From Parvibaculum lavamentivorans DS-1 (lineage in GTDB: Bacteria > Pseudomonadota > Alphaproteobacteria > Parvibaculales > Parvibaculaceae): 64,000 bases of DNA. Positions 19,969 to 54,448 of the stretch are shown here, one piece after another. The notes beneath the pieces were generated by a model. The model was not told where the DNA came from and did no database searches. It saw only the letters and a list, made by a program, of their open reading frames with translations. The stretch lies in assembly GCF_000017565.1 (NCBI RefSeq), contig NC_009719.1, positions 620,001 through 684,000 on the forward strand, given 5' to 3'. A program made the translations under genes and the position numbers. How positions within the stretch are numbered: the stretch's first letter is position 1; the number at the start of each line of letters is the position of its first letter.

Positions 19969-20487
19969 TCAGTGAAGGAGGCGCGGCATGGCTTCCGGAA
20001 AGGGAACGCTGGAATGGCACGCCGTTCCCAGAACGAGGCCGGCTGCGGAAAGCGCGAGTGCGAGCCGTTGAGCCGGCCCCCAGATCGGTGAGGCGCCGCA
20101 AGGCGCGGCTGCCCATGCAGGATCGAGCGCGGCGCTCGGCGAAGCGCCATGGCGCTGCAAGGCTGCTACGAAACACAGCACACGGACTTCGTCGCTGGTG
20201 AGGACGCGCCAGCGAGGGCAGGGGATGGAGAGCGGACGCTGCACGGTGCGCGTGAGCGCGGAAGCAAGATCGGCCACCATGGCCGCACCGCCCGGCAGCT
20301 CCAATGCATCGAATGCACGTTGCAGCAGCACCGACCTCTCGGCGCCATCTTCCGCGACGCGCCACTGCACCCGCAGGCTCCATACGAGAAACTGCTCCGC
20401 GAAACCAAGTTCGGCCAGCGGCTGATCTGGCGCGTAACCACCGGCCGGACGAGAAAAAAGATCGAGGGTGGCTTCGGCGGATTTCAT
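19969..20487 (-). CDS. hypothetical protein preceded by a Fur-box-like site
   Basis: A 172-residue protein, mainly alpha-helical by composition, with no clear signal peptide and few cysteines. It has ELGFAEQFLVWSLRVQWRV near the N-terminus and a hydrophobic Ala/Leu-rich C-terminal segment (RLALALSAAGLVLG). I do not recognise the family. The ATG at 20487 has an AAGGAGA site; the frame runs upstream to 20565 but that part overlaps the operator-like sequence and lacks a ribosome site. A Fur-like site 44 bases upstream suggests iron-linked control. It converges on the nitronate monooxygenase gene. Confidence 0.75.
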   Translation of the reverse strand: MKSAEATLDLFSRPAGGYAPDQPLAELGFAEQFLVWSLRVQWRVAEDGAERSVLLQRAFDALELPGGAAMVADLASALTRTVQRPLSIPCPRWRVLTSDEVRVLCFVAALQRHGASPSAALDPAWAAAPCGASPIWGPAQRLALALSAAGLVLGTACHSSVPFPEAMPRLLH

Positions 20488-20530
20488 GACGTCTCCTTCA
20501 GTGGGACTCATTCGGAAGCGTGGATGATGA

Positions 20531-20555
20531 TGCAAATGAGAATGACTCGCAAATA
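20531..20555 (-). promoter_or_regulatory. Fur-box-like sequence
   Basis: TGCAAATGAGAATGACTCGC followed by AAATA resembles a Fur box; against the 19-base consensus GATAATGATAATCATTATC it matches 12 positions by my count. It lies 44-68 bases before the start of the minus-strand hypothetical gene, where a repressor site would be expected. Alphaproteobacteria may use Irr, RirA or Mur instead of classical Fur, so the protein involved is uncertain. Confidence 0.5.
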
Positions 20556-20636
20556 AAAAGGACAATGTGAGTCCGGAAGAAGCTCTGGCCTCCAGTTATG
20601 GAAACGTCACTTTTCCGCGGAAATCCTAGGTTTTCA

Positions 20637-20665
20637 TTGACAGGGGCCAGCATGGCCATTACACA
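20637..20665 (+). promoter_or_regulatory. candidate promoter of the speDE operon
   Basis: A perfect -35 hexamer TTGACA at 20637-20642 is followed, after exactly 17 bases, by TACACA (3 of 6 matches to TATAAT). Transcription would begin near 20673, leaving a leader of about 335 bases before speD. Confidence 0.5.
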
Positions 20666-20672
20666 CGCGTCC

Positions 20673-21008
20673 GAACGCAATCGCACGTGCCACTGGCCGA
20701 TCCAGGTTACGTAACGGCGTACGCGTCTCTTTGGACAATTTCGGCGGCATGCCCGAGGTCGGGCATTGTTCAGGTACCTCCGCCGGGTTTCGAGGGAGAT
20801 TGCATATGTCCGGTTCCAGACCGAGGGGCTGAGGCCCCTGATCAAGCCGCGCAAGCGGGAGCGATAGCCCCGCAAATCGGCAAACTGAGCGGTCCGTCAG
20901 GACCATCCGCGTTCAATCCACGAACATTCCCATTGGCTCCGGCGCGCGCAGTTGAACCTGCGTCTCCGTCCGGCAAGCCAGGTCCATCTACTGGTTGGAG
21001 AGAGGCAC
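20673..21008 (+). promoter_or_regulatory. long structured 5' leader of speD-speE
   Basis: The 520-base gap before speD contains no ordinary gene but many hairpins in the last 340 bases: TGCCCGA-GG-TCGGGCA (20750-20765), GGGGC-TGAG-GCCCC (20825-20838), CCGC-GCAA-GCGG (20847-20858, a GNRA-type tetraloop) and GGTCC-GTCA-GGACC (20891-20904). A short ORF with its own ribosome site (20806-20832) lies among them. The layout suggests RNA- or leader-peptide-based regulation by polyamines, arginine or SAM. Whether it belongs to the known alphaproteobacterial speF leader family cannot be decided by eye. Confidence 0.55.
20806..20832 (+). CDS. candidate leader peptide MSGSRPRG in the speDE leader
   Basis: A 9-codon ORF, ATG-TCC-GGT-TCC-AGA-CCG-AGG-GGC-TGA, with AGGGAGA six to seven bases upstream of the ATG. 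It uses AGA and AGG, arginine codons that are rare in a genome of this GC content. Its stop codon lies in the loop of the GGGGC-TGAG-GCCCC hairpin, so a ribosome on the ORF would disrupt that hairpin. This is what a regulatory leader peptide looks like, but length and lack of comparison keep confidence moderate. Confidence 0.4.
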   Translation: MSGSRPRG

Positions 21009-21524
21009 ATGCCCGATACCAATGCCCTCTTCCAATTGGGGATCGACTTGAATCGCGATTCAAGCAGCACCCAGGCGGAAGTACTCGAGTTTCCCGTTCA
21101 CCCCGCTCATGAAGTGAAGGCATCGCCCGTCACGTCATCGGATGAACGCAAGGACTTCTTCATCGAGCGCGACGGAGACCGTTTCGCCGGTACGCACCTC
21201 ATCATCGATCTGATCGGGGCAAGCCGCCTCGACGATCTCGCGCATATCGAAGCGGCGCTGCGGCGCTGTGTCGAAGTGTCGAAGGCGACGTTGCTGCACA
21301 TCCATCTCCATCACTTCACGCCGAATGGCGGCGTGTCGGGTGTGGCTGTGCTGTCGGAGAGCCACATCTCGATCCATAGCTGGCCGGAAGCCGACTATGC
21401 GGCGCTCGACGTCTTCATGTGCGGCGAGGCCGAACCGCACAACGCGATCGAAGTGCTGCGGGAGGCTTTCAGCCCGAGCGACATCCGCGTCGATGAACAC
21501 CGTCGCGGACGGGGCATGGTCTGA
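21009..21524 (+). CDS. speD: S-adenosylmethionine decarboxylase proenzyme
   Basis: A 171-residue prokaryotic class 1 AdoMet decarboxylase. The self-cleavage site that makes the pyruvoyl cofactor is in LSESHISIHSWPE (cleavage between Glu and Ser, about residues 119-120), with the processing His in the same motif and the proton-donor Cys in FMCGEAEP near 140. It has about 40 extra N-terminal residues compared with the shortest family members. It supplies decarboxylated AdoMet for spermidine synthesis. GGAGAGAGG precedes the ATG. The stop overlaps the start of speE (TGATG). Confidence 0.95.
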   Translation: MPDTNALFQLGIDLNRDSSSTQAEVLEFPVHPAHEVKASPVTSSDERKDFFIERDGDRFAGTHLIIDLIGASRLDDLAHIEAALRRCVEVSKATLLHIHLHHFTPNGGVSGVAVLSESHISIHSWPEADYAALDVFMCGEAEPHNAIEVLREAFSPSDIRVDEHRRGRGMV

Positions 21525-22396
21525 TGACCGAGGCCCCGAAAGGCCGCTGGATCGTGGAAACCCTCTATGAAAAAGAGGGTTTCACCTGCGCCTTCCGCGC
21601 CGACAAGGTTTTCCACGAAGAGAACACGGCCGAACAGAATCTCGTGATTTTCGAGAACGCGCTGTTCGGACGGATGATGGCGCTCGACGGCATCACGCAG
21701 GTAACGGAGCGCGACGAGTTCATCTATCACGAGATGATGACCCATGTGCCGATCCTGGCGCATGGGCGCGTGCGCCGCGTGCTCATCATCGGCGGCGGCG
21801 ACGGCGGCATCCTGCGCGAAGTGCTCCGCCACAAGAAGGTCGATAAGGTCACGATGGTCGAAATCGATCCGGCCGTGACCGACTTCTGCAAAAAGCAGCT
21901 CCCGAAAATTTCGGACGGTGCTTTCGACGATCCGCGTCTCGATCTCGTCTTCGCGGATGGTGCGAAATTCGTGGAGGAAACGACCGAAAAATACGATGTG
22001 ATTATCGTGGATTCGACCGACCCGATCGGGCCGGGCGAAGTTTTGTTTCGCGAGAGCTTCTATCGCGCGGCGAGCGGCGTGCTGACGCCGGGCGGCGTGA
22101 TCGTGACGCAGAACGGCGTACCGTTCATGCAAGGCAGCGAACTGAAAGCCACGATGGAAAAATTCCGCCGCCTCTTCAAAGAGGCGACCTGCTATCTGGC
22201 CACCATCCCCACCTATGTCGGCGGACCGATGGCGATGGGATGGGGCACGGATGACGCGACACTGACCTCCCTGCCGCTTGAGGAAATCGAACGGCGGTTT
22301 GCGGAGGAGGGTTTCGCGACCCGCTACTACACGCCTGAGGTTCACAAGGCCGCCTTCGCCTTGCCGCGCTACGTCCTCGATTGCGTGGCTCCCTGA
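21524..22396 (+). CDS. speE: polyamine aminopropyltransferase (spermidine synthase)
   Basis: A 290-residue aminopropyltransferase that moves the aminopropyl group of decarboxylated AdoMet to putrescine. ALDGITQVTERDEFIYHEMM (about residues 52-71) forms the substrate gate, GGGDGGILREV near 90 is the nucleotide-binding loop, and DSTDPIGPGE near 163 carries the catalytic Asp. Start and speD stop overlap, so the pair is translationally coupled under the shared leader. Confidence 0.96.
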   Translation: MTEAPKGRWIVETLYEKEGFTCAFRADKVFHEENTAEQNLVIFENALFGRMMALDGITQVTERDEFIYHEMMTHVPILAHGRVRRVLIIGGGDGGILREVLRHKKVDKVTMVEIDPAVTDFCKKQLPKISDGAFDDPRLDLVFADGAKFVEETTEKYDVIIVDSTDPIGPGEVLFRESFYRAASGVLTPGGVIVTQNGVPFMQGSELKATMEKFRRLFKEATCYLATIPTYVGGPMAMGWGTDDATLTSLPLEEIERRFAEEGFATRYYTPEVHKAAFALPRYVLDCVAP

Positions 22397-48563: not shown

Positions 48564-48604
48564 CGCCGGTTGCAACCGGCGGCAAGCTCGCCTAGCATCC
48601 GCCC

Positions 48605-48780
48605 CGCAATGGTTCCGAAGGCGAATAGCCGGAGGATGAAAAGGGAACCCGGTTAAATACCGGGGCTGCCCCCGCAACTGTAAGCAGAGAGTTCTGCCCA
48701 ACCACGCCACTGGCGCTCCACCTCGGAGGCCGGGAAGGCTGGGAAAGAACAGTGACCTGCGAGCCAGGAGACCTGCCATT
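48605..48780 (+). promoter_or_regulatory. cobalamin (B12) riboswitch
   Basis: The aptamer core is recognisable in order: GGTTCC (48611), GCCGGAGGATGAAAAGGGAA (48628-48647), the B12 box GCCCCCGCAACTGTAAGC, GCCACTGG, GGGAAGGC and GAGCCAGGAGACCTGCC (48761-48777). It lies in the 395-base gap after the TetR gene and reads toward the thioesterase and metE. B12 would turn off the B12-independent methionine synthase. The switching stem lies between 48780 and 48958, where several GC hairpins occur. Confidence 0.93.
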
Positions 48781-48958
48781 GCCCGTCAACGCGAACCGAT
48801 GGGGCGGGGTGTCCCCTGGAGGAATGGATGCAGACAGGATCTGATCGCCGGCATTGTGTCCGGCCTCTCTTCATCGTGCCGTGGCATGCGCCGCGGCTTG
48901 CATTTTCCCATACGTGTCCGCTGACGGATTTTCCCGTGGTTCCAGCAAGGACACAGTC

Positions 48959-54274: not shown

Positions 54275-54318
54275 AAAACAAAAACGCCCGGCCAGCATTT
54301 AGAAGTGCTGCCCAGGCG
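54275..54318 (-). terminator. riboswitch expression-platform terminator before glyA
   Basis: On the minus strand CGCCTGGGCAGCA-CTTCTAAA-TGCTGGCCGGGCG forms a 13-base stem (one wobble, one mismatch) followed by TTTTTGTTTT. Its left arm is the GCCTGGGCAGC that the ZTP aptamer needs for its pseudoknot, so ligand binding and termination are mutually exclusive. Confidence 0.88.
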
Positions 54319-54386
54319 ATCGGCTCGAAAGACCAGTCTCCGCGCTCCCCGATGGTGACCCATCTGATTTCGCCAGTCGCGCGGAG
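54307..54386 (-). promoter_or_regulatory. ZTP (pfl) riboswitch controlling glyA
   Basis: The minus-strand leader reads: outer stem CTCCGCGC/GCGCGGAG, conserved ACTGGCGA, hairpin GATGG-GTCA-CCATC, conserved CGGGGAGC, then GCCGATCGCCTGGGCAGC. These are the ZTP/pfl aptamer blocks as I know them. Binding of ZTP/ZMP, a signal of folate (10-formyl-THF) shortage, would free the terminator arm and allow glyA expression. Confidence 0.85.
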
Positions 54387-54448
54387 GATATGTGCGACCG
54401 GAAGTGAAGGGAGTTAAGACCCGCGAGCGGCGGGAGTCAATTCCCTCG

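Follow-up and report, generated by a model that had tools for sequence, protein, structure and literature searches.

When we analysed a window of 64,000 nucleotides from Parvibaculum lavamentivorans DS-1, whose genome is a single contig of 3,914,745 bases, the gene pair speD-speE named in the original prediction was supported by profile matches. The speD gene, encoding adenosylmethionine decarboxylase, occupies 21009-21524 (TIGR03330, 127 bits), and speE, encoding spermidine synthase, occupies 21524-22396 (NF002010, 370 bits), both on the forward strand like all leader features described below. The promoter at 20637-20665 contains a -35 element TTGACA (20637-20642), a 17-nt spacer and a -10 element TACACA (20660-20665), and its position predicts a transcript start at about 20673. 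Within the leader, an upstream open reading frame (uORF) at 20806-20832 (ATG TCC GGT TCC AGA CCG AGG GGC TGA, MSGSRPRG-stop) is preceded by the Shine-Dalgarno (SD) sequence GAGGGAGA at 20792-20799. The hairpin AGGGGC/GCCCCT at 20824-20839 holds the uORF stop codon within its loop, and the SD of speD lies at 20997-21005. Thus the promoter, the structured leader with hairpins, the short ORF with its ribosome site and the stop codon in the GGGGC/GCCCC loop were all found where they had been described. Elsewhere in the window, the Rfam search returned a Cobalamin riboswitch at 48593-48794 (+, 132 bits) and a ZMP/ZTP riboswitch at 54303-54390 (-, 68 bits).

Since the predicted fold energy of the whole leader was unexceptional (z = -1.39), the significance of the leader rests on its conservation. 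We fetched 30 speD loci, and the 28 Parvibaculum-family loci with upstream DNA were the relatives compared. TTGACA was seen 35-38 nt 5' of a conserved 5' core in all 28 leaders, and this core, the SD, the ATG and AGG-GGC-TGA/TAA of the uORF were also kept in all of them, indicating that these features are beyond chance. The stretch from SD to start codon was nearly constant, GGAGA(A/U)UGC(A/U)UAUG, and both the short ORF and its stop hairpin persisted in 28/28 relatives. At the start of speD (20997-21080), the codon identity was 0.87 over codons 2-24 versus 0.65 over the remaining codons (highest sliding mean 0.76), which probably reflects an RNA constraint on the speD start as well. Nucleotides there, TTG Leu codons included, are kept beyond the need of the protein, and this nucleotide conservation suggests a second RNA structure that may hold the speD SD.

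The original prediction had also proposed sensing of arginine through rare codons. The codons AGA and AGG are indeed rare, accounting for 1.1% and 3.6% of the 942 Arg codons in the long GC3-biased ORFs of the window. When we aligned the leaders, the ORF start, the SD and the stop hairpin were kept but the AGA codon was not, being AGT (Ser) in most relatives. The constancy of AGG-GGC is explained by the stop hairpin, because these codons form part of its GGGGC/GCCCC stem, which was invariant in 25 distinct sequences. The peptides themselves vary, comprising MSGSRPRG, MSGSSLRG, MSGSSPRG, MAGSRPRG, MPDYSLRG, MPVYSLRG, MPTSSLRG, MLYLNGRG and similar forms. Changes at codon positions 1, 2 and 3 numbered 10, 22 and 24 among 14 distinct sequences, showing no clear peptide selection or third-position excess. 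Based on these observations, the arginine reading was not borne out.

The main conserved element, which the original prediction missed, lies 5' of the uORF at 20673-20727. This core of about 55 bases begins at the predicted transcript start and has the order P1, UCGCACGUGCC, hairpin P2, NAACGRCG and P1'; in the 28 speD leaders it appears as an almost invariant block, GAACGCAAUCGCACGUGCC ... UAACGRCGUACGCGUCUC, followed by a variable hairpin. P1 pairs ACGC (20675-20678) with GCGT (20723-20726) in the speD leader, where an automatic stem search favoured other short pairings. In distant relatives P1 is GACGC/GCGTC, GCCC/GGGC (the Rhizobiales type) or TGCGC/GCGTA, so that both strands change, and the relaxed search pattern described below left P1 unconstrained. 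The near-invariant UCGCACGUGCC (20681-20691) forms the 5' side of a stem P1b whose 3' side is GTAACGGCG (20711-20719; GCAACGACG in distant relatives), with AACGGCG in the window and AACGRCG across speD leaders. Because the sole variation in P1b is G-C to G-U, this stem has little covariation support. The presence of UCGCACGUGCC in 28/28 speD relatives is not by construction, since these loci were found by protein search, whereas in alignment A2 the two search patterns, both of which fix the core sequence, make it invariant by construction. The P2 hairpin (20694-20709), variable in sequence, showed compensatory changes with both sides altered in 12 cells, a level reached in 0 of 500 shuffles. 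A model built from 76 cores (R2) matched P1, P1b and P2 at 20672-20736 with 67.2 bits (E 5e-18), in line with column conservation in alignments A1 and A2.

We then examined the distribution of the core. The exact speD-type pattern, searched class-wide, occurred in only two genomes, both of the genus Parvibaculum, and a wider family came to light when the pattern was relaxed to the common core. Of 385 alphaproteobacterial genomes, 27 contained the relaxed pattern, with 30 matches in all, whereas the reversed control pattern matched only 3 times, in 2 genomes. Nearly all matches with enough downstream DNA precede genes whose proteins are ornithine decarboxylase (odc), an odc-like decarboxylase or homospermidine synthase (hss). 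By best match in named genomes, the core precedes at least 36 odc-like genes, at least 13 odc, at least 9 speD/speE and at least 5 hss genes; the remaining listed matches lie on truncated contigs or are chance matches lacking the architecture by eye. Among the matches listed, the core is found in Parvibaculum, Tepidicaulis, Azospirillum, Roseomonas, other Acetobacteraceae and Rhodospirillales. Leaders outside Rhizobiales share the order of the speD leader, namely P1, core, P2, P1', a CUUUU strand, a hairpin, the SD and a start codon. When R2 was run against 398 Pseudomonadota genomes, its 21 matches fell in 19 genomes that all belong to the Alphaproteobacteria, and every one of these matches stands before odc, an odc-like gene or speDE. 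These include divergent cores with GCACGCGCC and GUAGCGACG; at seven loci (L210-L215 and L217) from several genera of one family, a divergent core (GCACGCGCC ... GUAGCGACG or GCAGCGACG) that the exact patterns missed stands directly 5' of odc. Inspection by eye of L033-L039, which are speD leaders from distant alphaproteobacteria, showed no such core. The leaders of hss type (L063, L064, L066, L068-L070 and L076) contain similar uORFs, more alike than other uORFs, that mostly end in Arg-stop (MFGHMLAPPPRIER, MNGHAPAPYPRNDR), with L064 ending in DG.

Within the genus Parvibaculum, R2 found at least one copy of the core in 25/25 genomes and two copies in 18/25, and the second copies examined lie directly before odc. 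The second copy of P. lavamentivorans DS-1 itself (C1:3453508-3453574, minus strand) was found by R2 directly 5' of odc. In the Parvibaculum odc leader, the SD is predicted to pair in CCUUUUU/AAAAAGG and the start codon is that of odc itself, which carries an N-terminal extension. In the genome studied, this extension starts with a CAGGGC/GCCCG hairpin that resembles the one at the uORF stop, and used alone as a query it gave no matches elsewhere. The link of the leader with polyamine control made in the original prediction was supported. The same core precedes genes for other polyamine enzymes, and its occurrence at hss and speDE in addition to odc makes the gene set point to polyamine end products.

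Downstream of the core, stem P3 is predicted to pair CTCTTT (20727-20732) with AGGGAG (20793-20798), covering the SD of the uORF (20727-20798 overall). Pairing of the SD with the CUUUU strand was predicted for 106 out of 111 distinct leaders, but the 5' strand of P3 is a general anti-SD sequence, for which an SD partner is easily predicted. An alternative pairing (20723-20808) joins the P1 3' strand GCGTCTC (20723-20729) with GAGATTGC (20796-20803) and reaches over the SD and ATG of the uORF. When we folded 20673-20840, the alternative (-67.8 kcal/mol) and the core-intact structure (-64.6 kcal/mol) were mutually exclusive and 3.2 kcal/mol apart; the columns of the alternative pairing are invariant and therefore give it no covariation support.

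Based on these observations, we regard it as very likely that the leader is a genuine cis-regulatory element belonging to a class-wide family of polyamine-gene leaders. The best-supported mechanism is gating of first-ORF translation, and we consider it probable that the leader acts in cis on the first ORF, which is odc itself in Parvibaculum and the uORF before speD. The core (P1, P1b and P2) would fold as soon as it is transcribed, and P3 would then pair with the SD of the first ORF, that is, of odc in the Parvibaculum odc leader and of the 8-codon uORF with its stop in a hairpin before speD. In the speD leader, the P1 3' strand could alternatively lengthen P3 so that it covers the uORF start codon; initiation on the uORF would then be switched by a signal that makes the core more or less stable. 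While translating the uORF, ribosomes would open the stop hairpin and may alter the folding between the uORF and speD, whose start region is itself apparently constrained as RNA. We infer such switching and its sign, the coupling of the uORF to speD and a polyamine-pathway end product as the signal.

In Rfam searches at gathering and relaxed thresholds, no family matched the speD locus, and the speF model put forward in the original prediction fared no better. The ar45 model (RF02347, cut-off 40 bits) gave no match in 20450-21150 at E values as high as 10, nor in ten relatives at E values as high as 1, and neither the speF leader model (RF00518, cut-off 37 bits) nor the SAM-I family matched the speD locus or the ten relatives. 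Leaders of distant Alphaproteobacteria carried UCGCACGUGCC together with AACGACG 5' of their RF00518 matches. Judged by sequence, ar45 is the Rhizobiales form of the core, and RF00518 is the region just 3' of it. In Rhizobiales, ar45 lies upstream of odc where the transcript begins, and it shows P1, UCGCACGUGCC, P2, AGCAACGACGG and P1' followed by a U-run. It differs from the speD leader in being annotated as an sRNA and in its GCCC/GGGC P1, large P2 and terminator-like U-run; after P1, speD leaders have GCGUCUCUUUGG, which contains no uninterrupted U-run, whereas Rhizobiales have GGGCUUUUUU. The speF leader likewise belongs to the same pathway and follows the ar45 core closely on its 3' side, ahead of odc, but its 153-position model describes the downstream part, where the sequence is different and no uORF is evident at the position of the SD. 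It precedes ornithine decarboxylase, while the core in the window precedes speD and the second copy of the same genome precedes odc. RF00518 was rejected as a homolog of the speD core because the model covers a different part of the leader. The speF element of Corbino et al. 2005 (PMC1273637) begins near the transcript start and so probably included the core.

A stronger form of the cis-leader explanation, rather than an exclusive rival, is a direct metabolite riboswitch, with the core as a candidate aptamer for homospermidine, spermidine, putrescine, decarboxylated AdoMet or a similar compound and P3 as a translational expression platform. The conserved core and expression platform expected of a riboswitch are present here as the core and the SD-sequestering P3, the latter by prediction. 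The compact core at the transcript start lies next to this predicted stem, the readable downstream genes are for polyamine biosynthesis only, and two copies per genome stand at two steps of one pathway. Against this, none of the pathway compounds tested, putrescine and spermidine among them, was bound by the speF RNA of A. tumefaciens (PMC1273637), although the Rhizobiales leader differs downstream and homospermidine was not among the compounds listed. We therefore regard the riboswitch as plausible, somewhat short of an even chance. More tentatively still, the core may be the aptamer of an unrecognised, class-wide alphaproteobacterial polyamine riboswitch whose ligand is perhaps homospermidine or spermidine and which has odc, hss and speDE under joint control, in some cases via a uORF, with ar45 as its terminated product and the speF leader as its Rhizobiales expression platform.

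In other explanations the core has a different role. If the uORF were an attenuator like SpeFL, its peptide or Arg codon would stall ribosomes on ornithine, arginine or polyamine and the core would be scaffold only; every speD leader has a uORF with an SD, RG-stop is invariant and Arg-stop ends most hss-type uORFs. Yet the uORFs of different lineages vary widely in both length and sequence, the 5' core is much better conserved than the peptide, and the enzyme itself is the first ORF in Parvibaculum odc and at locus L077, which together with the codon pattern and the hairpin-fixed AGG-GGC makes such an attenuator quite unlikely. Very high primary-sequence conservation would also suit a binding site for a protein, either a regulator or Hfq, for which binding to ar45 has been reported (PMC7717549), and translation of polyamine genes might be gated in this way or by a thermosensor; a thermosensor would have no need of an invariant core, and we find this explanation unlikely. 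A core that is mainly a trans-acting sRNA, as in the ar45 annotation, and is merely made from polyamine-gene promoters would accord with the finding in Bartonella and S. meliloti that ar45 is expressed apart from the speF leader, with the co-precipitation of S. meliloti ar45 with Hfq (PMC7717549) and with the resemblance of the Rhizobiales P1 and U-run to a terminator. A terminated leader would also yield a short product, however, and outside Rhizobiales an SD-sequestering stem and a start codon follow the core at a similar distance; association with polyamine genes is not expected of a trans-acting RNA either, and we consider this origin very unlikely. The cis layout rather suggests the idea that ar45 is a leader product.

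The gating of first-ORF translation that we favour can be compared with other known leaders. SpeFL (orf34), like the uORF here, is a leader ORF 5' of a polyamine gene, the enterobacterial speF, but it is a longer, ornithine-sensing arrest peptide, while here an 8-residue variable peptide lies 3' of a conserved RNA core. The conserved peptide of a SpeFL-type arrest peptide was not found, as the uORF sequence varies between lineages. The odc1 motif (uORF-25-1) follows a similar logic: it is an alphaproteobacterial odc leader in which a stem holds the ribosome-binding site and a short uORF is present, and reporters showed that both starts are used (PMC8632094). It differs in its overlapping UUG-N2-UUG starts and GGGAC/GUCCC stem, neither of which occurs in the speD leader, and was rejected as the same family on sequence, four odc1 loci having no UCGCACGUGCC or NAACGACG core. 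The upstream regions at L220-L223 carry the published odc1-type motif, whose TTGAATTG starts precede decarboxylase-like genes. The spermidine riboswitch, a SAM-I variant, places spermidine genes, speD and speE among them, under the control of an RNA (PMC10853860), but it has the SAM-I fold, for which the speD leader gave no family match. In the literature searched, we found no report of the core at speD or hss; an updated speF model (Greenlee et al. 2018, cited in PMC7266159) may already include the core at odc. Part of the core is already in Rfam as ar45 of Rhizobiales, and the core is not confined to speD, occurring also at odc and hss across the class. The element at this locus is a known orphan in a new variant form and a new genomic context. 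At hss and speDE, its simpler layout, ending in the predicted SD-sequestering stem, offers RNAs of about 140 nt that are compact enough for ligand assays. Both ar45 and the speF leader (2005) have long been orphans in Rfam, known from positions before odc in Rhizobiales and related groups, and one polyamine control system apparently links both entries, RF02347 and RF00518.
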